Shown here one piece after another: positions 1-46,245 of a stretch of DNA of 48,483 nt. Source of the DNA: Methylophaga sp. GTDB lineage: Bacteria > Pseudomonadota > Gammaproteobacteria > Nitrosococcales > Methylophagaceae. The position numbers and the translations under genes are program-made. Below the pieces are notes generated by a model. That model had not been told where the DNA came from and did no database searches. It saw only the letters and a list, made by a program, of their open reading frames with translations. The DNA lies in NCBI GenBank assembly GCA_030148085.1, contig JASBUF010000088.1, positions 1-48,483 of the forward strand. Reading direction: 5' to 3'. How positions within the stretch are numbered: the stretch's first letter is position 1; every line of letters starts with the position of its first letter.

Positions 1-1137
1 CTGCTGTTTTTCGCCATTCTGCTGGCAGCGGTCACCAGTGTTGCGGGCAGGGTGTTTTGTGGTTACTTCTGCTTTCAGACTGTCTGGACCGACATCTACA
101 CCTTCATTGAAACCAAACTCGAAGGCGACACTCCGCAAAAAGCGCATAAGTTCAAACAAGCACCGTGGACTTTCGATAAAACCAGCCGCGTAGTGACCAA
201 ACACAGCCTATGGATAGCCATCGCCTTACTCACCGGCCTGTCCTTTGCCGCCTGGTTTACCGACGCCTATCAGCTCTGGGCTGATATCTTCAGTCTGCAG
301 GCCCCATTACCGGTATGGATATCCCTCGCCGTGTTCGGCACCTTCACCTACGGCTTTGCCGGCTTTATGCGTGAACAAGTCTGCTTCTGGCTCTGTCCCT
401 ACGCCCGCCTGCAAGGCGTGATGTATGACCAGGACACCGTATTACCGGCCTATGACGCCGAACGCGGTGAACCTCGAGGCAAACTCAAAAAAGGCCAGGT
501 GGATAGCAGCAAAGGTAGCTGTATTGACTGCAAAGTCTGCGTCGCTGTCTGTCCCACCGGTATTGATATCCGTAAAGGCCAGCAAGAAGGCTGTATCACC
601 TGCGGCCTCTGTATTGATGCCTGTGACAGCATCATGGACAAAACCGACCAGCCGCGAGGCCTGATTCGCTACGCCAGCTACAAGGAACTGCACCACGACA
701 AACACGTCTTACCGATGTACCAACGCCCACGAGTCATTATCTACAGCCTCATTTTGCTGATGTCTCTGTCAGGCATTGTCTATGGCTTTACCACCCTGTC
801 GCCGACCGAATTTAAAGTCATCCATGACCGTCAGCCCTTATTTGTACGTCTGAGTGACGGCTCGATACAGAACAAATACACCTTGAAGCTGCTCAACAAG
901 ACGCAGGCACCGATTACCGTCAACTACACCCTCAGCGGCTTAGACGGGGCCAGTCTGCATGGCATGGAAGAACAGGTCATTGTTGAGCCGGGCAGGGTGA
1001 TACCGATGACGGCGCTGGTACGGGTACCGGCGGCAGTGATTGAACAAGGGCTGGTACCGATTGCCTTTACGGCCAATGTCAAAGACCAGCCAAACTTAAC
1101 CACCACCTATGACAGTATCTTTATGGGACCGGAATAA
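1..1137 (+). CDS. ccoG: Cytochrome c oxidase accessory protein CcoG (FixG), 5' truncated
   Basis: Membrane iron-sulfur protein needed for maturation of cbb3-type oxidase, linked in the family to copper reduction and delivery. The frame is open from base 1, so the gene begins before the window; about 100 of the usual roughly 470 residues are missing. Visible parts are a membrane segment with a CGYFC motif, a second segment followed by CPYARLQ, then two ferredoxin-type clusters (CIDCKVCVAVCP and CITCGLCIDAC) that would hold two [4Fe-4S] centres. A further membrane helix follows, then a C-terminal Ig-like FixG domain of about 110 residues. A GTG at 52 lies inside the protein and is not the start. 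It is the first visible gene of ccoG-ccoH-ccoI-ccoS; the structural ccoNOP genes would be expected upstream, outside the window. Confidence 0.95.
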   Translation: MLFFAILLAAVTSVAGRVFCGYFCFQTVWTDIYTFIETKLEGDTPQKAHKFKQAPWTFDKTSRVVTKHSLWIAIALLTGLSFAAWFTDAYQLWADIFSLQAPLPVWISLAVFGTFTYGFAGFMREQVCFWLCPYARLQGVMYDQDTVLPAYDAERGEPRGKLKKGQVDSSKGSCIDCKVCVAVCPTGIDIRKGQQEGCITCGLCIDACDSIMDKTDQPRGLIRYASYKELHHDKHVLPMYQRPRVIIYSLILLMSLSGIVYGFTTLSPTEFKVIHDRQPLFVRLSDGSIQNKYTLKLLNKTQAPITVNYTLSGLDGASLHGMEEQVIVEPGRVIPMTALVRVPAAVIEQGLVPIAFTANVKDQPNLTTTYDSIFMGPE

Positions 1138-1149
1138 CGGAAAACCACT

Positions 1150-1653
1150 ATGAAAATTTCACAAGATAACCCACAGGCTTTGCGTAATCCCTGGGTATTG
1201 GGAATGCTGGTCTTTTTATTTGTCTTTTTAGCTGCTAACGCCGTCTTTATCTACCTTGCTTTTTCATCGCCACCGAGTTTGGTTGTGAAAGATTTCTACG
1301 AAAAAGGCGAAGCCTACGCTGAAACGCAGAAACGTATTGCTGAGCAGGAAGCACTGGGCTGGTCTGGCATGCTGATGGTACCGACCAACTCTCGGGTTAA
1401 TCAGACGCAAACCTACGAAGCAGTGATTACTGGAAAAAACTCAGCGGGCTTGCTGCTTGACTCAGTAACCTTGTTCGCATTTCGTCCGTCTGATGCTAAT
1501 GCAGACTTTTCAGTCGAGATGCAAAAGTCTGGTCATGGTAGTTATCTGGCCGATGTGAGTTTTTCTCTGCCGGGCACGTGGGACCTTATTGTTGAAGCCA
1601 AGCAGGGCGACACTGAGTTCGTCATAACCCGTCGTCTGCGTATTGAGCCTTAA
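1150..1653 (+). CDS. ccoH: FixH/CcoH family cbb3 oxidase assembly protein
   Basis: Small membrane protein that helps assemble cbb3 oxidase and interacts with it. The 167 residues show one N-terminal transmembrane helix (about 18-40) followed by a short SSPP turn and the typical FixH segment [10 protein letters not shown]. The rest is a beta-rich periplasmic domain of about 115 residues. It starts 12 bases after the ccoG stop and is followed 23 bases later by the copper ATPase, so it lies in the ccoGHIS operon. Length and topology fit the FixH family; sequence conservation in this family is low, so identification rests on topology, the N-terminal motif and position. Confidence 0.9.
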
Positions 1654-1676
1654 CAGCTGTAGCTGAATCCAACTTA

Positions 1677-4178
1677 ATGAGTCAGACATCGACGAAAACG
1701 CTAGCCTTGGAAAGTTGCTATCACTGCGGCCTGCCGGTTGAAGATAATGGTGACTTTACCTCAGTAGTCGCTGGCGAGCAGCGGGCGTTTTGCTGTCATG
1801 GCTGCCGGACTGTGTGTGAGACGATTTACGCATCGGGTTTGCAGGGCTTTTACAGTAAATCTACGCGCAGTGAAACTCTGGCTCCGCCGCCGGAAGTGGC
1901 TGCTGAATTGACCGCTTATGATCAGGATGATGTGCAGGCAGATTATGTTGATGCCTTAACGCCACAGCGAACGATTCATCTGTTAGTTGAAGGTATTCAC
2001 TGTGCAGCTTGTGTCTGGCTGATTGAAAATGCACTCAGACGCCAAGCTGGCGTATTGAATGCTGAGGTCAACCTGACCGCCAAGCGCCTCAAACTCCACT
2101 GGGATAATTCGCAGGTACCCTTATCTCAGCTACTTCAGGCGTTGGCGGATATTGGCTATGCAGCTGTGCCGTTTGATCCGGAAACCGCTGAAGGTGCCTT
2201 AGCTAAACGCCATCGTAGCTTGTTATACCGCATGGCATTTGCTGGCTTTGCGATGATGAATATCTTGTGGGTATCCATCGCATTGTATTCCGGTGCTGAT
2301 CAAGGCGAGTTTCGCCAGTGGTTTCACTGGATCGGTTTTGCGATCGCAACACCAACATTGCTGTATTCCGGTTATCCCTTTATCCGCAATGGTCTGATTG
2401 GTTTGCGCCGACGCTATCTGACGATGGATCTGCCGATAGCCATTGGCGCCTCAGCCACCTACCTCTATTCGTCCTATGTCACCTTTTATAACGTGACCAA
2501 TGGCCATGTTTATTTCGATACGGTAGTGAATTTTCTGTTTGTGGTCTTGGTCGGACGCTATCTGGAAGCCATTTCCAAGCGTCGTGCAATGTCGGCTACC
2601 CAGCGCTTGCTGGAGCTTCAACCCAAGCTGGCTAACCGCGTCGAGGGCGAGACAAGTCGTGTCGTACCAATACGCAGTATTGCCATCGGGGACCTGGTAT
2701 TAGTCAAACCTGGTGAGCGTGTACCCGTCGATGGCGTGATCATGTCAGGACAGAGCGCTGTTGATGAATCGATGCTGACAGGTGAATCATTGCCTGTGGC
2801 TAAACAGGAAGGCGATAAGGTTGTAGCGGGAAGTATCAACGGTGAAGGGGCTTTCAAAGTCAAAGTTGATGCGGTACTTCGCAATACTGCATTAGCCAAA
2901 ATCGTGACCTTGATGGATGAAGCACAAGCCTCGAAAGCACCGATTCAGACCATTGCTGATCGTATCGTGCCCTGGTTTGTTTTGGCGACGCTGACATTAT
3001 CGGCGCTGACCTTTATCTATTGGCAGTTTACTGATTTTGAATTGGCATTGCTGGCCGCAGCGTCTGTACTGGTGATTACCTGTCCATGCGCGTTTGGTAT
3101 GGCTACACCGATGTCTGTGGCTGTAGCCACTGGTGTCGGTGCTGAGCATGGCATTCTGATCAAACGAGGTGAGTCACTCGAAGAGCTGTCAAGAATCGAT
3201 CATATTGTTTTTGATAAAACAGGCACGTTGACAGAAGGCAAGCTGCAAGTGACGACCCTGAAAAGTTTTGCTGACTTGAGTGAGCAGCAGATTCTGCAAC
3301 TGGCAGCCTCTGTCGAGCAACACTCGGAACATGGTGTGGCAGCCGCTATTTGTAACAAGGCCATCTCGCAACATCTGAGTTTACTGGCCAACCACGACTT
3401 TAGTTCGACACCCGGCAGGGGGGTTCAGGCCGAGGTCGATGGTAAACGTATTCACCTAGGCACCGAGTCTTGGTTTAGGTCGTTGGACATCACACTAACA
3501 ACTGAGCAACAAGCATCGATGTCGGAACTCGAGCAGCAGGGTATTAGTTGCGTACTGTTGGCGGTTGATCGACAAGTTGTGGGTTTACTGGGGCTGGTCG
3601 ATGAATTACGCAGTGATGCGATAGAAACCGTACAGAGCCTTGTTGCAGCAGGAATCAAAGTGACCGTGTTGAGTGGTGATCGGCAGGCCGTCGTCAATGC
3701 TGTCACCGCGCCACTCGGAAACATCAGTCGGCAGGCAGAAGTGTTACCTAAAGATAAGTCAGATGTCGTGCGTGCTTTACAGGAGCAGGGCGATAACGTC
3801 GCTATGGTCGGTGATGGGATCAATGATTCACCAGCATTGATTCAGGCTAATGTTGGTATTGCACTGGCATCGGGTACGGATGTGTCGGTGGAGAGCGCTG
3901 ACGTAGTGTTGTCGCATCAAGCCTTGAAACATGTGGCTGATGCCAGACTGTTGGCGGGGCTGACTCTCAGAACAATTCGCCAGAATATTGTACTCTCGAT
4001 TACTTACAACGTTATCATGGTGCCATTAGCGATGATGGCGATGGTCAGTCCGCTAGTTGCAGCGATGACAATGCCAATCAGCTCGTTACTGGTGATTGGC
4101 AACGCTGCACGAATTGGCCGTGGTTTTAAAAAACAGGTCGAATATCGGTCAAAACTTCTTCCTGTTGAGAGGGTGTGA
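1677..4178 (+). CDS. ccoI: Copper-translocating P1B-type ATPase CcoI (FixI)
   Basis: Inner-membrane P1B ATPase of the FixI/CopA2 type, which exports Cu+ to the periplasm for metallation of cbb3 oxidase. Order of parts: a cysteine-rich N-terminal metal-binding region (CYHCG and FCCHGC, about residues 15-45), a heavy-metal-associated domain with GIHCAAC near 106-112, transmembrane helices, the TGES actuator motif at 368-371, the CPC ion-binding motif at 469-471, the phosphorylated aspartate of DKTGT at 513, and GDGINDSP from 712. All catalytic motifs are intact and the 833 residues match the FixI subgroup. The stop overlaps the ccoS start by one base. The CPC and HMA motifs together with the neighbours favour the oxidase-assembly role over general copper detoxification. 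Confidence 0.95.
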
Positions 4179-4435: not shown

Positions 4436-7400
4436 ATGTTTAAAACGTGGAGTATTAAGCGATTGCTCCAGTTTTGTGCTGTTGTCACGGCTATAGTCGT
4501 TGTCTTTATGGCCTTGATGGCAAATTATGCCAACGGCCTGATTAATTCGACCCGCCAGATCATGGCTGAACAGGTGTTACCGCTGGAACAGAGCAGCCGA
4601 CGCCTCAGCACTGTGGCGACCGCTTTCAGCAGTCGCCAGAAGCAAATCCTAAATAGCCAATTACTGGCAGAACTGCAGCAACTGGAACCCCGTGGCATGC
4701 TTGAGCAGTCGTTTCTGCAGAACTGGCTACGACTGTCGCAGATATTTTCCTCACAGGATGACTCTAGCCGGTCTTTGGATGCCTTGTTCAATGATTATCA
4801 GGATTTCCTGCGTCTGGATGCGGAGTTGTTTCTGCTTAAACAGCAGAGTCTGCAGCTTGCTAAGCAGTTGCAACAGCATAGCGACGATGTTGATATACAG
4901 GCCGGGCAGTTATTGCAACAATTGGCCGCCCTCGAAGAACGCCTGCGAAGCGCGAGACAGGTTCGGCTACAAAATATACTGGAACCGATACAGATCGGTG
5001 TTTTTGAGCTGAGTATGCTGACGCATGATGTCTTGTTGACGAACAATGACAATGAATTGCAGATACTCAAAAAACAACATTTAGCACCATTGCAGCAGGC
5101 GCTAACAGAGCAACTGGCGAACTTGAAGCAAGCGATATTCACTCAACCTGAATATCGTCAGTTACAGGAAAAGCTCGACTATGACATCAAGGTATTACTC
5201 AACCTGATAACCCAGGATCAGGGATTGTTCAGCTTGCATGAAGCCCATTTGCTCAACCAGTCATTATTGCTACAAACCGAACAGTCGTCGCTGACACTGA
5301 TGAAACTGCTGATTGACAAGGTCAATTTGATTGCTCAAAACAGTTATCAGCGGAGCTATGACACGGTCAGTCACAATGTGGATCAAGCGGATCAGACCCG
5401 CTGGAAAATTATCAGTCTGAGTGCGTTGGTCACCTTGGGCATGATGATCTTTGTTTGGTTGGTTTTTCGGGCGATAAGTCATCCGCTGGGTATTATCCGG
5501 CGCTCAATAACAGCGCTGTCAGAAGGACACTTCGATACCCGGATTGCCCAGTCGGGGTCAAAAAATGAATTATCCCTGCTGGCAAAGGACTTTAACCAGT
5601 TTGCTGACAACACCGAGCAGATGATTGATGAACTCAGTGATGCCAGAACCACACTGCAGAACCGTGAGCAGCATATCCGCGCCGTACTGAATGGGTTACC
5701 AGAAGCGATCCTGACGCTGAGCGATAGCGGCACAATCATTGATACCAACCCGGCGGCTGAACTGGTGCTGGGTGGGAGCAGTGAGACCTTGCGCGGACAG
5801 ACCTTGTTTCAGTTCTTCAAGCCGGATTTGGGCATCGACAGTATCGAAGTCTTGCTGGGCTATTTGAAAGAAACCGGGGAGTTGGATGGACAGCGATTGG
5901 ATGACTCGTCCTTATCAATGTGGCTGTCGCTGAGTCAGATTGATAGTGTGGATAATCATACAGTCTGGGTTTGCGTCATTTCAGATGTAACGGCCTGGAA
6001 ACAAACGGATGAGCGTCTGCAGCAGCTCAGTTCTGAACAGGATGCCATTCTTGAGAACGCCATTATCGGCATAGCCTTTATCCGCGATCGTAAATTTGTC
6101 CGCGTTAATCAACGTTTTGAGCAATTGTTCGGCTTTGAGCGGGATCAGATCATCGGTCAGAGCACGATTACTATCTATCCGAATCAACAGGCCTACCAGC
6201 AATTTGGTGAGCAGGCTTATCCGATGCTGGCGCAGGGAGACAGTTTTGAAGCGCAACTCGAATTGAGCAAGCATAATGGTGAAAAGTTCTGGTGTGCCCT
6301 TTCCGGGAAATCCGTCGATGCCTCAGAACCACTGGCTGGCACGATCTGGTTGTTTGAGGATGTCACCAAGCAGCGCGAGAATGAAGAGTATCTGACCCAA
6401 CTGGCCAGTATTGACTCGCTGACTGGCCTACCCAACCGCAATGTATTCAATGACCGTGTTGCTCATGCGATACATAAGGCGCAGCGTGATGCTGGGCGTC
6501 TGGCCGTTTTCTTCCTCGACCTGGACCACTTCAAACACATCAATGATTCGATGGGGCACAAGGCTGGCGATATTCTGCTGAAAGAGGTCGCCAACAGAGT
6601 CAAATCCTGTCTGCGCGAAGGCGATACTGTCGCCAGACTGGGCGGTGATGAGTTCACTATGCTATTGGAAGATGTACGCTCGGCAGAGTATGTCGGTAAG
6701 GTCGCAGAAAAAGTGATTCAGGTGATGTCTCGCTCTTTCAGTATCGAATCGACCGAGGTCACGGTTAGCCCGAGCATTGGCATCAGCCTCTATCCGGCCG
6801 ATGGTCGCGATGTAGATATGCTGATCAGAAATGCAGATGCGGCGATGTATCATGCGAAAAAACTGGGCCGTAATAACTTCCAGTTCTACTCGTTAGAAAT
6901 GAATGCCGAAGCGGCAGAAAGACTGGCGATGGAAACAGCCTTGCGACGCGCTGTCGAGCAGCAGGAGTTCTATCTGCATTACCAGCCTCAGTTTGATCTG
7001 AAACAGGGAGGGCTGGCCGGAGCCGAAGTCTTGCTGCGCTGGTATAGTCAGGAGTGGGGAGAAGTTCCGCCAAGTCGCTTTGTGCCTATTCTGGAAGACT
7101 TGGGGCTGATCGGTAGCGTTGGTGAGTGGATATTGCGTCAGGCCTGTGACTGCTACCTGAACTTACGCGATGAGTTAAGTCCCGACTTTGTTATCGCCGT
7201 CAATTTGTCAGGACGACAGTTTAAGGGCGGTATGCTGGCAGGCAATCTGCGTCGTTTGTTGAAAGAAACCGGAATGCCAGCACAGAATCTGGAGCTGGAA
7301 ATCACCGAAACCATGTTGATGGAAGACACGGAGTTGGCCACTCTGACGCTGAATGAGCTGAGTCAGATGGGGATCAATCTGGCCATCGACGATTTTGGCA

Positions 7401-41799: not shown

Positions 41800-43134
41800 A
41801 TGGCAAAGCGCAGGCGCAGACAGAAATTGCCCACTGAGGCAGTCACGGCAACGATTGAATCCTTATCCCATGATGGGCGGGGTATCGCCCGCATAGATGG
41901 TAAAACGGTGTTTGTGGATGGGGCGCTGGCCGGGGAAACCGTCAGTTTTCAGTACACACGTCTGCATAAAAGCTATGACGAAGCAAAGGCGATAGACGTC
42001 TCTAACCCAAGTTCCGACCGGGTTGAGCCTGCCTGTAATCACTTCGGTGTGTGTGGCGGCTGTAGTCTGATGCATATGTCACCAGAGGCCCAGCTCAGGC
42101 TCAAACAAGCCACATTGGCTGAGCACTTTGCCCACTTCGGTAATTTATCACCTGAAACCTGGCTTGAGCCGTTAACTGGTCCGTTGTTTGGCTACCGCCG
42201 CAAGGCACGTCTCGGCGTGAAATACGTGACCAAGAAAGAACAGGTACTGGTTGGGTTTCGCGAAAAAGGTTCCCCCTATCTTGCTCAGCTTGAGCAATGT
42301 GAAGTTCTGGACCCTCGCGTTGGCAAGCGCCTCAGTGAACTCGGTCAGATGATTGCCGAACTCGCTGCCTATAACCGTATCGCCCAGGTTGAAGTGGCGA
42401 TGGACGATGAGCACGTGGCACTGGTGTTCCGTAATCTGGATCCGCTGTCTGAAAGCGACAAACAAGCGATTATTGCCTACGGGCAGCAGCATGATATCTG
42501 GGTTTATCAGCAGCCGGGCGGCCCTGATACGGTGGAACCGTTATGGCCAGAAAAACCACAGCTGTCCTATGCGCCGGAAGCTGGTCTGACACTCAACTTT
42601 GATCCGAGTGACTTTACTCAGGTCAATGCGGGCATCAATGAAAAAATGATTCAACGGGCATTGGAACTGCTCGATATTCAGCCGGAGGATCGCATTCTGG
42701 ATTTGTTCTGCGGTCTGGGTAATTTCACCTTGCCGCTGGCACGCCGTGTAAGCGAAGTGGTCGGTGTGGAAGGTGATCAGGCGCTGGTCAACCATGCCCA
42801 TAACAATGCGGCACTGAATGGTTTGGCCAATGCGGATTTTGAGCAGGCCGATCTGACCCAGACTGAGTTGAAAGACTACCCGTGGGCACAAAAGGGCTTT
42901 AATAAAATTCTGCTCGATCCACCACGCAGCGGTGCCTTTGAAGTCCTGCACCAACTGGCTGACTTAGGCGCAGAACGTCTCGTTTATGTGTCTTGTAACC
43001 CCGCGACCCTCGCCCGTGATGCGGGTGAACTGGTCAACAAGCACGGTTATAAAATGGAAGCCGCCGGTATTATGGATATGTTCCCGCATACGACGCATGT
43101 CGAGTCTATCGCGGTATTCAGTAAACAGGCTTAA
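41800..43134 (+). CDS. rlmD: 23S rRNA (uracil-1939-C5)-methyltransferase RlmD
   Basis: SAM-dependent methyltransferase that makes m5U1939 in 23S rRNA. In 444 residues: an N-terminal basic stretch and TRAM domain (about 14-70), an iron-sulfur cluster site with C79, C85, C88 and C167, the SAM-binding motif ILDLFCGLGNFTLPLA, then DPPRSGA and the nucleophile in VSCNPAT (C399). All four cluster cysteines and the catalytic cysteine are present. The stop overlaps the next start by one base (TAATG). Confidence 0.95.
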   Translation: MAKRRRRQKLPTEAVTATIESLSHDGRGIARIDGKTVFVDGALAGETVSFQYTRLHKSYDEAKAIDVSNPSSDRVEPACNHFGVCGGCSLMHMSPEAQLRLKQATLAEHFAHFGNLSPETWLEPLTGPLFGYRRKARLGVKYVTKKEQVLVGFREKGSPYLAQLEQCEVLDPRVGKRLSELGQMIAELAAYNRIAQVEVAMDDEHVALVFRNLDPLSESDKQAIIAYGQQHDIWVYQQPGGPDTVEPLWPEKPQLSYAPEAGLTLNFDPSDFTQVNAGINEKMIQRALELLDIQPEDRILDLFCGLGNFTLPLARRVSEVVGVEGDQALVNHAHNNAALNGLANADFEQADLTQTELKDYPWAQKGFNKILLDPPRSGAFEVLHQLADLGAERLVYVSCNPATLARDAGELVNKHGYKMEAAGIMDMFPHTTHVESIAVFSKQA

Positions 43135-44243
43135 TGGCGGACGCGCAGCAGTTAAAAGATCACCTTGGGCCAGCAGCCATAAAGCAGCTGGCCGAGATTC
43201 TTTTTTCCGTCTATCCAGCGTTTAATCAACAGGGTTTTGAAACACAGGCCCAGCAGCAACTTCACCGTCTTGAACTCAAGGATCGAGTGCAACATATCAT
43301 TTCGGTGCTGGCTCAATATTTACCGCACGATTTTGCCGAAACAGCTCCACTACTGAAGTCTGCGTCCGAAAACTGGCCTCAGGCTACAGAGGGGAACTGG
43401 AGCCACTTTGTCGCCTGGCCCCTCATCGATTATGTCGGCGTCCATGGTTTGGAAAAGCCTGAACTGGGGCTATCGGTTTTAGAAAAGCTGACACCACTAT
43501 TTACAGCCGAGTTTGCGATTCGTCCTTTTCTTGAACAGCATTTTGAATTAACCCGGCAGCAGTTATTACGTTGGACGCAGCATGAGAATGAACATGTCAG
43601 GCGACTGGCATCAGAAGGCATCCGGCCGCGTTTACCGTGGGCAAGCCAACTGTCAGTGTTGCGAGATGATCCTTCCCCTATCTGGCCGATTGTGGAGCGT
43701 TTAAAAAACGATCCCAGCCTCTACGTGCGACGCTCGGTGGCGAATAATCTGAATGACATCAGTAAAGACCATCCCGAACGGCTTATGGAAGTCTGTCAGC
43801 AGTGGTTAAGTGGTGGTGATGAGAAAGTAGCCTGGGTGGTTAAGCATGGCTTAAGAAGCTTGGTCAAACAAGGGAGAGAAGAGGTCTACCCGTTACTGGG
43901 GTTCAGTCCGGAAGCTAAATTGAAGCTGGCGACGCTGAGTTTATCCGCAAAACAGATTCAACCGGGCGACAGGCTTGGTTTTACCCTGACACTGGTCACA
44001 ACGGAAGCACAGAAGCTGGTTCTGGATTATCGGGTAGGTTTTGTCGGTAAAGATAGCCGTCGTCGCTGGAAAGTCTTCAAATGGAAGACAATTGAGACAC
44101 AAAAAAACACATCGCTAACTTTTCAGAAAAGCCAGCTATTTCAGCCGTTATCCACACGGCAACTGTATCCGGGCTTACACCTGATCGAGTGTTTGCTTAA
44201 TGGTCAGGTGGTTGCCCGGGGCGAGTTTCAACTGTCTCTGTAG
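43134..44243 (+). CDS. alkC: AlkC-type DNA glycosylase (HEAT-like repeats plus Ig-like domain)
   Basis: DNA alkylation repair protein of 369 residues. The N-terminal two thirds are helical repeats with family-typical stretches (HFVAWPLIDYVGVHG, HVRRLASEGIRPRLPWA, YVRRSVANNLNDISKDHP), as in AlkC and AlkD glycosylases that remove 3-methyladenine or 3-methylcytosine without base flipping. The last 110 residues are beta-rich (LSAKQIQPGDRLGFTLTL to the end), matching the C-terminal Ig-like domain of the AlkC alpha subgroup. The gene symbol is based on that layout. It is coupled to rlmD by a one-base overlap and its stop abuts the convergent micro-gene at 44244. Confidence 0.78.
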   Translation: MADAQQLKDHLGPAAIKQLAEILFSVYPAFNQQGFETQAQQQLHRLELKDRVQHIISVLAQYLPHDFAETAPLLKSASENWPQATEGNWSHFVAWPLIDYVGVHGLEKPELGLSVLEKLTPLFTAEFAIRPFLEQHFELTRQQLLRWTQHENEHVRRLASEGIRPRLPWASQLSVLRDDPSPIWPIVERLKNDPSLYVRRSVANNLNDISKDHPERLMEVCQQWLSGGDEKVAWVVKHGLRSLVKQGREEVYPLLGFSPEAKLKLATLSLSAKQIQPGDRLGFTLTLVTTEAQKLVLDYRVGFVGKDSRRRWKVFKWKTIETQKNTSLTFQKSQLFQPLSTRQLYPGLHLIECLLNGQVVARGEFQLSL

Positions 44244-44351
44244 CTACGACATAACCAGGCCATAACCGACCAGCACGATAAAAGCCAGAGAAAGAACACA
44301 GATAAACTCGGCGAAATGTTCACTGAAGAACTCTTCTAGTTTGTCCATCAT
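44244..44351 (-). CDS. 35-residue single-pass membrane protein, copy 1
   Basis: Short open frame reading MMDKLEEFFSEHFAEFIC at its N terminus followed by a hydrophobic helix (about 16-33) ending GLVMS, then TAG. An excellent ribosome binding site GGAGGTG lies six bases before the ATG at 44351. It has the same length as the micro-gene at 44527-44634 and aligns without gaps: nine identical positions (1, 4, 11, 13, 17, 27, 28, 31, 32) and many conservative ones, so the two are likely paralogues. The layout, a charged amphipathic head then one helix, resembles small accessory subunits of membrane enzymes or transporters. A class II FNR-like promoter sits upstream. I know no family for it. Confidence 0.75.
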   Translation of the reverse strand: MMDKLEEFFSEHFAEFICVLSLAFIVLVGYGLVMS

Positions 44352-44401
44352 GATGCACCTCCATTTTCAGTAATTGGCGATAAACAACAAACTTGGGTTG
44401 A

Positions 44402-44443
44402 TTATCGACCCTGTCTTTGTGGTGAGCATTGACTTGGATCAAA
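44402..44443 (-). promoter_or_regulatory. Class II FNR/ANR-type promoter for the 35-residue protein, copy 1
   Basis: On the minus strand TTGATCCAAGTCAA (44443 to 44430) differs at one base from the FNR consensus TTGAT-N4-ATCAA. A -10-like GATAAT follows at 44407-44402. If transcription starts at 44395, the site is centred at -41.5 and the -10 covers -12 to -7, exactly the class II activator geometry; the leader would be about 44 bases. No FNR gene is in the window. Confidence 0.6.
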
Positions 44444-44480
44444 AACTTTATTCTTGCAGTTACGAAACTACGCCCATAAA

Positions 44481-44506
44481 AAAAGCCAGTCAAGAGACTG
44501 GCTTTT
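44481..44506. terminator. Rho-independent terminator between the two micro-genes
   Basis: AAAAGCCAGTC (44481-44491) and GACTGGCTTTT (44496-44506) form an 11-pair stem with an AAGA loop. On the minus strand seven T follow the stem, so it ends transcripts of the copy 2 gene before the copy 1 promoter. Confidence 0.92.
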
Positions 44507-44526
44507 CGATGTAGAGTGCTGGTGGA

Positions 44527-44634
44527 TTAGGCGTTGTACAGGCCGAAAGCGACCAGTGTCAGCCAAAAGGCCACAAAACTCATGATAATGTGGGGAAATT
44601 TTTCCACCAACAGGGCATCAACTTTTTTCAACAT
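44527..44634 (-). CDS. 35-residue single-pass membrane protein, copy 2
   Basis: Short open frame beginning MLKKVDALLVEKFPHII, then a hydrophobic helix with FWLTLVAFGLYNA at the end, TAA stop. It aligns gap-free over all 35 residues with the micro-gene at 44244-44351, including K4, E11, F13, I17, L27-V28 and G31-L32. It lies 78 bases downstream of sulP on the same strand and is followed directly by its own strong terminator, which supports it as a real transcribed gene. Its ribosome binding site is weaker (only GAG) than that of copy 1. Function unknown; a small partner of the SulP transporter is one possibility. Confidence 0.72.
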   Translation of the reverse strand: MLKKVDALLVEKFPHIIMSFVAFWLTLVAFGLYNA

Positions 44635-44686: not shown

Positions 44687-44712
44687 GGCGAAAGATAGCA
44701 GTTATTTTCCAT

Positions 44713-46245
44713 TTATGCCAGCTTATCGTCAGCCACATGATAGCGTGGATCTTCCATCACGTTGACTTCAATCAGGTCAGCCGCGTTACTCAGCAGCTGT
44801 TTGCATTCTTCGCTCAAATGTCTCAAATGCAGGGTTTTTCCTGCTTTGATGTAACGCTCTGCCAAAGTATCGATAGCTTCAATCGCCGAGTGATCATAAA
44901 CCCGAGAGTTTTTGAAATCGAGAATGATGTCATCGGCATCATCACTTTTCGGCTCGAACATTTCGCTGAAATTCCGAACGGAGCTGAAAAATAACGGACC
45001 GTTCAGTTCGTGGACGATAGAACCTTGTTCATTACGGTAGCTGTTGATGTAAATATGTTTGGCATGCTGCCAGGCAAACACCAGTGCTGACATGACGATA
45101 CCCACCATGACCGCGATAGCGAGATCGGTAAACACGGTGATCACGGCAACAGAAATACCGATAATTGCATCCGGCAGAGGAATACGGCCAAGCAGACGGA
45201 AGCTGGCCCATTCAAAGGTGCCGAGTACCACCATAAACATCACGCCGGTTAGAGCCGCAATAGGAATTATTTCAATCAGCGGTGAGGCAAACAGGATAAA
45301 GCAGAGCAGGAACAAGGCGGCGGATATACCTGATAAGCGACCACGACCGCCTGAGTTCACGTTGATCATGCTTTGGCCGATCATCGCGCAACCACCCATA
45401 CCACCGAAAAAGCCGGTGACAGTATTGGCCACACCCTGACCGATACATTCCTTATTAGGACGGCCAGTGGTTTCGGTGATTTCATCGATCAGCGTCAAGG
45501 TCAGCAAAGACTCAATCAAACCAATAAATGCCAGAATAAAGGCATAGGGTGCAATGATGGTCAGGGTTTCCCAATTCAGTGGCACCATGGGGATACTGAA
45601 CTCAGGGAAGCCGCCGGCAATCGAAGCGACATCACCAACGGTGCGGCTATCCAGACCCAGTCCGATAACCAGCAGGGTCACCACAATGATGGCGGCCAGG
45701 GAAGAGGGCACGGCCTTAGTTAATTTAGGCAGGAAATGACTGATAAACATGGTCAGTGCGACCAGACCCAGCATCCACCACAAAGCATCGCCGCTCATCC
45801 ATTGCTGCTCACCATTCTCGCCAGTGACTTTAAATGCATTCAATTGGGCAAGGAAAATCACCATGGCAAGGCCGTTCACAAAACCAAGCATGACCGGCAA
45901 AGGCACCATGCGGATAAATTTACCCAGATGAAATGCCCCGGCCAGAATCTGCAAAATCCCCATCAGTACGACCGTCGCAAACAGATATTCAACACCATGT
46001 TGAGCAACCAGCGCGACCATTACCACAGCCAGAGCACCGGTAGCACCGGAAATCATGCCTGGACGACCGCCGATAGCGGCAGTGATCAGACCAACCAGAA
46101 ACGCAGCATAGAGGCCGACCAGTGGTTCTACGCCTGCCACAAAGGCAAAGGCGACGGCTTCCGGTACTAATGCCAAAGCGACAGTGAGGCCTGACAAGAC
46201 GTCGTTTTTAATATTTTGGGGACGTTTCAATAACAGGTTAAACAT
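44713..46245 (-). CDS. SulP family inorganic anion transporter
   Basis: Inner-membrane anion transporter (sulfate, bicarbonate or similar) of the SLC26/SulP family. The 510 residues have a transmembrane core of about 12-14 helices, with the early motif [21 protein letters not shown] and later [26 protein letters not shown]. The C-terminal cytoplasmic STAS domain spans about 395-500 ([21 protein letters not shown]). Substrate cannot be read from the sequence; no sulfate-assimilation or carbonic anhydrase gene adjoins. A ribosome binding site AAAAGG precedes the ATG. Two micro-genes follow downstream. Confidence 0.92.

Follow-up and report, generated by a model that had tools for sequence, protein, structure and literature searches.

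In the window, by which we mean the whole stretch of DNA analysed (48,483 nucleotides of a Methylophaga genome), two short genes on the minus strand encode predicted single-helix membrane microproteins which we propose, with a probability of about 0.5, to be the constitutive and the low-oxygen isoform of a one-helix accessory subunit of the cbb3 oxidase. The sequences reveal two ancient paralogue types driven by two kinds of promoter-like element, which co-occur with the oxidase gene ccoN and have apparently been lost together with it.

Layout of the locus

The features of the window that bear on this proposal are the following:

44527-44634, minus strand: copy 2 (SulP-side) microprotein gene, 35 aa (from the reading frame, its conservation in the genus and pN/pS)
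44244-44348, minus strand: copy 1 (distal) microprotein gene, 34 aa from the second ATG (from the reading frame; 35 aa if the start is at 44351)
44357-44362, minus strand: copy 1 ribosome binding site, GGAGGT (from the sequence)
44692-44700, minus strand: copy 2 putative extended -10 element, TGCTATCTT (pattern conserved in tandem loci)
44478-44502, minus strand: copy 2 putative intrinsic terminator, stem GCCAGTC/GACTGGC and T run (from the sequence; conserved in tandem loci)
44429-44442, minus strand: copy 1 putative FNR box, TTGATCCAAGTCAA, one mismatch to TTGATnnnnATCAA (from the sequence; box in 28 of 28 tandem loci)
44401-44406, minus strand: copy 1 putative -10 hexamer, GATAAT, 22 bases after the FNR box (same spacing in 31 aligned promoters)
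44713-46245, minus strand: SulP-family transporter, a neighbour judged to be outside the system (Pfam PF00916; orthologue missing in 32 of 44 carriers)
43134-44243, plus strand: convergent gene for a 369-aa HEAT/DNA-alkylation-repair-like protein (Pfam PF08713, PF02985)
1-4178, plus strand: ccoG, a 167-aa frame and a copper P-type ATPase, cbb3 assembly genes (TIGR02745 and TIGR01511 above cut-off)

Both microprotein genes are intergenic, lying on the minus strand between the SulP gene and the convergent HEAT-repeat gene, whose stop codon abuts that of copy 1. The two short minus-strand frames described in a first-pass annotation of this DNA are indeed present (44527-44634 and 44244-44351, each of 35 aa), and the nine identities it listed are correct when the two 35-aa versions are placed side by side. 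The near-perfect ribosome binding site that it saw before copy 1 is the GGAGGT motif, and the separate terminator that it credited to copy 2 is a stem-loop (44485-44502) followed by a T run on the minus strand. Its remark that the two peptides are identical in length is true in the window if copy 1 is read from its first ATG, but does not describe a conserved trait: several close relatives carry ATT in place of this ATG, so that copy 1 probably starts at the second ATG and is then 34 aa long. Each peptide has a charged head and one hydrophobic stretch of 19 residues (positions 15-33), and single-sequence structure models predict helices at residues 2-12 and 14-34 of copy 2 and at residues 3-33 of copy 1.

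Elsewhere the HEAT/DNA-alkylation-like gene adjoins the microproteins in many loci, and a protein search for it in 13 genomes lacking microproteins came up empty in 9. In draft assemblies, contig ends frequently fall at the microprotein locus or close to it (G003:C103, G021:C7, G397:C40, G415:C45, G020:C65 and G404:C220/C227, given as genome and contig), and in G403 (C77/C79) and G425 (C9/C283) a contig break falls between the two copies; strain variation, repeats or an insertion hot spot may be the cause. In one locus (L122 of genome G424) the microprotein genes are separated by a 222-aa frame (5125-5793) that has no Pfam match.

Conservation and selection

The genus was represented by 23 genomes, that of the window among them; copy 2 was found in 18 of these (E 5.2e-19 to 3.5e-7), and copy 1 in the same 18, weakly so in G008 and G009. 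Among named records, a copy-2 profile matches 14, all of them Methylophaga, with M. thiooxydans, M. sulfidovorans, M. aminisulfidivorans and M. lonarensis among the carriers. A search with a 67-member profile extended the microproteins to 44 of 57 genomes of the taxonomic family (which we take to be Methylophagaceae), all with intact frames and 38 of the 44 with both copies; a weak match in G415 (E 0.0225, inside a 95-aa frame) was scored as absent, giving 44 carriers rather than 45. The same profile found no microprotein in the six genomes of the order's other family, and two class-wide profile searches (369 genomes each) yielded nothing convincing outside the family. In one of these class-wide searches, 8 of the 12 genomes with E <= 0.02 fall outside the family: the matches in G344, G055 and G113 were inspected and judged to be chance, and the five others (E 0.0057 to 0.017), which are partial and in some cases contain stops or lie inside long frames, were judged from the score table to be chance as well.

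Conservation of the frames and selection on each of them, the two sequence checks put forward in the first-pass annotation, both come out in favour of genes. The frames are intact in the 44 carriers; third codon positions hold most of the differences in both copies, and pN/pS ratios summed over the genus come to 0.24 (copy 2) and 0.41 (copy 1) (equal-length pairs only, with the copy-2 comparisons of the window versus L096, L116 and L117 left out). That both copies are under purifying selection and represent real, overlooked genes is well supported by these comparisons. Protein family and PDB searches returned no convincing known family or solved structure for either peptide, which agrees with their earlier description as paralogous one-helix membrane microproteins without a known family, and on these searches the pair is a new microprotein family confined, as far as found, to the taxonomic family of Methylophaga.

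Two ancient paralogues

In a profile-profile comparison copy 1 and copy 2 match with a probability of 97.7% (E 1.4e-12), and the two types are distinct, as upstream or downstream membership of a tandem could be called correctly from sequence in 56 of 56 cases when each locus was left out in turn. The upstream type has F in alignment column 20 (28/28) and F-W in columns 23-24 (27/28 and 28/28), the downstream type S or A in column 23 (23/28) and M in column 34 (23/28); one locus, L125, was kept out of alignment A3 because a contig end cuts it. By these signatures the copies are ancient paralogues, and since the type is separable by sequence across the family, the duplication probably predates most of the family. 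Three single copies, in G391, G410 and G412, are ambiguous in profile type (differences of -4.1, +4.6 and -2.8); we classed the first two as copy 2 on the evidence of their promoters, and that of G412 has only a looser form of the copy-2 promoter pattern.

Small hydrophobic tandem paralogues could also be type I toxin genes, and 4 of the 67 members weakly resemble PepG1, the best with an E-value of 0.13. Such values are at chance level, however, the region has no Rfam match up to E 0.1, and both types have been kept over the family in a position-specific form, each with a distinct promoter, all of which makes toxins a very improbable explanation.

Promoters of the two copies

Flanking DNA was read for 37 of the 44 carriers, which comprise 28 tandem loci, three genomes with separate loci and six with one copy; the tandem loci are related to each other (L103 and L119 are nearly the same), so the counts out of 28 are not independent trials. 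An extended -10 element, TGNTATNNT, precedes 26 of the 28 upstream copies (1.8 expected) and none of the 28 downstream copies, and an intrinsic terminator follows 24 of the 28 upstream copies (0.1 expected) and 3 of the 28 downstream ones. In the window, the extended -10 sits between the SulP stop codon and the start of copy 2. A generic promoter and terminator scan picked up neither copy's promoter nor the copy-2 terminator, and fewer sigma-70-like sites than expected, which counts against the proposal; the scan requires other patterns. With an extended -10 promoter and a terminator of its own, copy 2 is probably expressed constitutively.

Copy 1 is preceded by DNA of another kind. The sequence TTGATnnnnATCAA, given as the FNR consensus in an extract of PMC3688515, occurs with at most one mismatch within 150 bases of all 28 tandem downstream copies (17 times perfectly) and at only 2 of the 28 upstream copies, the Markov expectation being 1.6 to 1.9% per region, and the three copy-1 genes outside tandems have boxes with 0, 1 and 2 mismatches. 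When 31 promoters were aligned on the box, a second conserved block emerged 22 bases downstream, with the consensus GATAAT and with positions 2, 5 and 6 conserved in 30, 27 and 29 of the 31, respectively. With the -10 element at this fixed distance of 22 bases, the box is centred near -41.5, a common position at FNR-activated promoters according to the same extract (PMC3688515), and the prediction that the copy 1 promoter has class II FNR-activated geometry is well supported by this alignment. The FNR box and this geometry are new beyond the first-pass annotation. The predicted box also stays with copy 1 when the pair is split: in G009, where about 958 kb separate the two copies, copy 1 retains a perfect box and copy 2 has none. 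A gene for the regulator is at hand, as the window's genome has an fnr match above the NF008365 cut-off, and 42 of the 44 carriers have a match at E <= 1e-20. The one-mismatch box near the single copy of G427 is, in our reading, part of the coding end of SulP.

A short intergenic unit activated by FNR might instead yield mainly a regulatory RNA, the frame being secondary or the transcript dual in function, and the small RNA FnrS does figure in the FNR target table of PMC3688515, as far as the excerpt goes. We hold this to be very unlikely for copy 1, as the codon-position pattern and the pN/pS values show selection on the protein, the DNA between the FNR box and the -10 is little conserved, and downstream copies seldom have a terminator.

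In three loci (L099, L104 and L128) an FNR box with 0, 0 and 1 mismatch, respectively, is found directly after the -10 of copy 2. E. coli FNR is described as repressing from sites that overlap the transcription start (PMC3688515, in part), and these boxes are the only hint that the two copies might be switched reciprocally. Two perfect FNR boxes, 40 bases apart, occur before copy 1 in L130 of G397 (at 829 and 869). Separately, in L142-L144 the DNA between fnr and an adjacent frame, which resembles OmpW in our reading, holds a box with one mismatch (TTGACCTGGATCAA), suggesting that this frame is another FNR target.

The SulP neighbour

The first-pass annotation had offered two candidate partners, the adjacent SulP protein and a respiratory enzyme such as the cbb3 oxidase; the first did not hold up, and the second is the one to which co-occurrence with ccoN and apparent joint losses point. 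An orthologue of the window's SulP (E <= 1e-150) is present in 12 of 63 genomes of the order and adjoins the microproteins in 12 of 12, as would be expected if the peptides were small subunits of the transporter. Yet at the same threshold 32 of the 44 carriers have no such SulP, and copy 2 has a promoter-like element of its own, observations that led us to rule out a SulP operon and to regard a SulP subunit as barely credible. In other genomes the gene upstream of copy 2 encodes LexA, a class III aminotransferase, TyrRS, an MscS or a GGDEF protein, and PEP synthase is often found downstream of the microprotein locus. The adjacency to SulP is probably the ancestral arrangement, with SulP having been lost repeatedly.

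Co-occurrence with the cbb3 oxidase

Partner co-occurrence was compared for ccoN, fnr, CydA and this SulP. We scored ccoN as present in 53 of the 57 family genomes, 50 with matches above the TIGR00780 cut-off and three with partial matches (315 to 444 bits) in fragments or where a contig ends. Microproteins occur in 44 of these 53 genomes, none of the 44 carriers is without ccoN, and none of the four genomes that lack ccoN (G413, G421, G422 and G423) has a microprotein, an association with a Fisher p of 0.0018, or of 0.015 for genomes at least 90% complete (kinship ignored). The six outgroup genomes have no microproteins either. Among the nine ccoN-bearing genomes in which no microprotein was found, contigs that end at the expected position or before it explain four (G020, G415, G001 and G406), the others being G004, G010, G018, G419 and G420.

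In a LepA tree of 60 genomes (G010 yielded no LepA; G025 and G028 were excluded), all four genomes without ccoN group in a single clade of eight, the other four members of which have ccoN and one microprotein gene each. Within this clade G410, with both ccoN and a microprotein, is the sister of G422, with neither (99/94), and G421 and G423 form another pair (100/99), so that at least two joint losses of ccoN and microproteins are the simplest reading of the tree. What weighs against the argument from joint loss is that the four genomes without ccoN share one clade, that two of them are incomplete (G413 81%, G423 84%) and that reduced genomes lose many genes together; G412 is incomplete as well (67%).

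CydA and the microproteins are uncorrelated (p 0.75), with CydA not found in 23 of the 44 carriers, the window's genome included, and the bd oxidase was rejected as a partner because the distribution of CydA does not follow the microproteins. The gene fnr tracks the microproteins almost as well as ccoN does (Fisher p 0.0049): the carriers without an fnr match are G398 and the incomplete G412, and G413 has fnr and neither ccoN nor a microprotein. This correlation leaves room for the same oxygen-switched pair of isoforms serving another complex, such as bc1, NADH dehydrogenase, ATP synthase or a cytochrome c donor, as an FNR promoter and a constitutive twin do not name a partner and losses in reduced genomes are broad. 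We think another complex possible but doubtful, given that every one of the 44 carriers has ccoN, that the bd oxidase is uncorrelated, and that G398, a genome of only 1.1 Mb (100% complete) with no fnr at E <= 1e-20, retains ccoN and one microprotein gene. Among the partners compared, we infer the cbb3 oxidase to be the best-fitting one, because no carrier lacks ccoN and the genomes lacking ccoN lack the microproteins too.

The microproteins and ccoN do not form one operon: on shared contigs 47 to 266 kb separate them, in most cases 47 to 66 kb, and this lack of linkage counts against the proposal. The window's left end carries assembly genes of the kind found after a cbb3 operon, about 40 kb from the microproteins; ccoG is cut by the contig start, a copper P-type ATPase stands in place of ccoI, and a 167-aa frame, for which no family match was found, in place of ccoH.

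A perfect FNR box was seen upstream of ccoN in four of four loci, and in a sample of 20 of the 53 genomes, with one ccoN each, a box with at most one mismatch was present at the usual place in 14. The six without a box there are G006 (which has one about 400 bases further upstream, left uncounted), G400, G398, G038, G391 and G410. Three of these, G038, G391 and G410, have a single microprotein gene with a copy-2 type promoter and no FNR-type copy; where ccoN seems to be out of FNR control, the FNR-driven copy thus seems mostly to be gone too. The coincidence is limited by the fact that these three genomes belong to one clade, and it has counter-cases: G400 and G006 have an FNR-type copy 1 (with a perfect box in G006) and no ccoN box at the usual place, and G427 has a ccoN box yet only a single copy, with a copy-2 type promoter.

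Proposed mechanism and comparison with known small membrane proteins

According to our proposal, the two genes would encode isoforms of one single-helix microprotein of the inner membrane. Copy 2, with its own extended -10 promoter and terminator, would supply the standing form. When oxygen is low, active FNR would bind the box about 41.5 bases upstream of the start and recruit RNA polymerase, so that copy 1 is made as well. The peptides would most likely be docked on the cbb3 oxidase through their helix as a small accessory subunit, with the helix in the membrane and the charged head at its surface; as oxygen falls, the copy-1 form would join or replace the copy-2 form. The expression response, the insertion into the membrane, the binding to cbb3 and the exchange of isoforms are what we infer from the genes and their promoters. 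More tentatively, the full scheme would have an FNR-induced 34-residue isoform joining or replacing its 35-residue twin on cbb3, with FNR in one lineage also shutting off the twin; taken as a whole, this we offer as possible but less likely than not. Eukaryotic cytochrome oxidase is known for a hypoxic exchange of subunits, of which the proposed isoform swap would be a miniature.

The closest functional model that we can propose is CcoM, which has a single helix and is encoded away from the cco operon. It is described, in the section of PMC10433244 available, as a 36-aa cbb3 subunit of Pseudomonas stutzeri that is important under oxygen limitation. The Methylophaga peptides resemble it in size (34/35 versus about 36 aa) and in having one predicted transmembrane helix, but they differ in being two isoforms with different promoters, and their binding to cbb3 is predicted from gene distribution. 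PDB sequences gave no match up to E 10 with either profile or single sequence, in searches that have low power at 34-35 aa and with the presence of the CcoM chain among the entries unconfirmed; with no homology detected, the pair is not filed as CcoM. A second precedent, the orphan CcoN proteins of Pseudomonas aeruginosa, which extracts of PMC5697931 and PMC10790758 present as cbb3 subunit isoforms encoded apart from the full operons, likewise involves alternative isoforms encoded away from the cco operon, although CcoN is the large catalytic subunit and we are dealing with peptides of some 35 residues for which association with cbb3 is predicted.

CydX of E. coli, a small component required by cytochrome bd oxidase (PMC6005532, in excerpt), shares the single hydrophobic helix, but the distribution of the Methylophaga pair does not follow CydA and, as we read the loci, the pair does not lie beside cyd genes. 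E. coli also has small stress membrane proteins, YohP among them, with fewer than 50 aa and one transmembrane segment (PMC12719787, in excerpt), which the Methylophaga pair resembles in size and in its single segment. The same excerpt states that YohP lowers the proton motive force (PMC12719787), and the pair might by analogy be free-standing stress peptides of the membrane, acting to adjust respiration or the proton motive force. We consider this improbable, in that a conserved standing copy with a constitutive-type promoter and the co-loss with ccoN suggest a fixed partner; unlike YohP, moreover, the microproteins form a paralogue pair with constitutive-type and FNR-type promoters. In the open-licence literature, supplementary files aside, we found no description of the pair or of the proposed mechanism.

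Methylophaga transcriptomes from oxic and anoxic culture exist, as an extract of PMC11526790 indicates, and the predicted switch could therefore be checked from existing data. If true, our proposal would provide a short and testable bacterial case of oxygen-dependent subunit exchange, carried by a new family of unannotated proteins retained by 44 of the 53 genomes examined that bear cbb3. The case also illustrates how, for a protein too short for ordinary annotation, a partner can be suggested by the architecture of its promoters together with joint gene loss.
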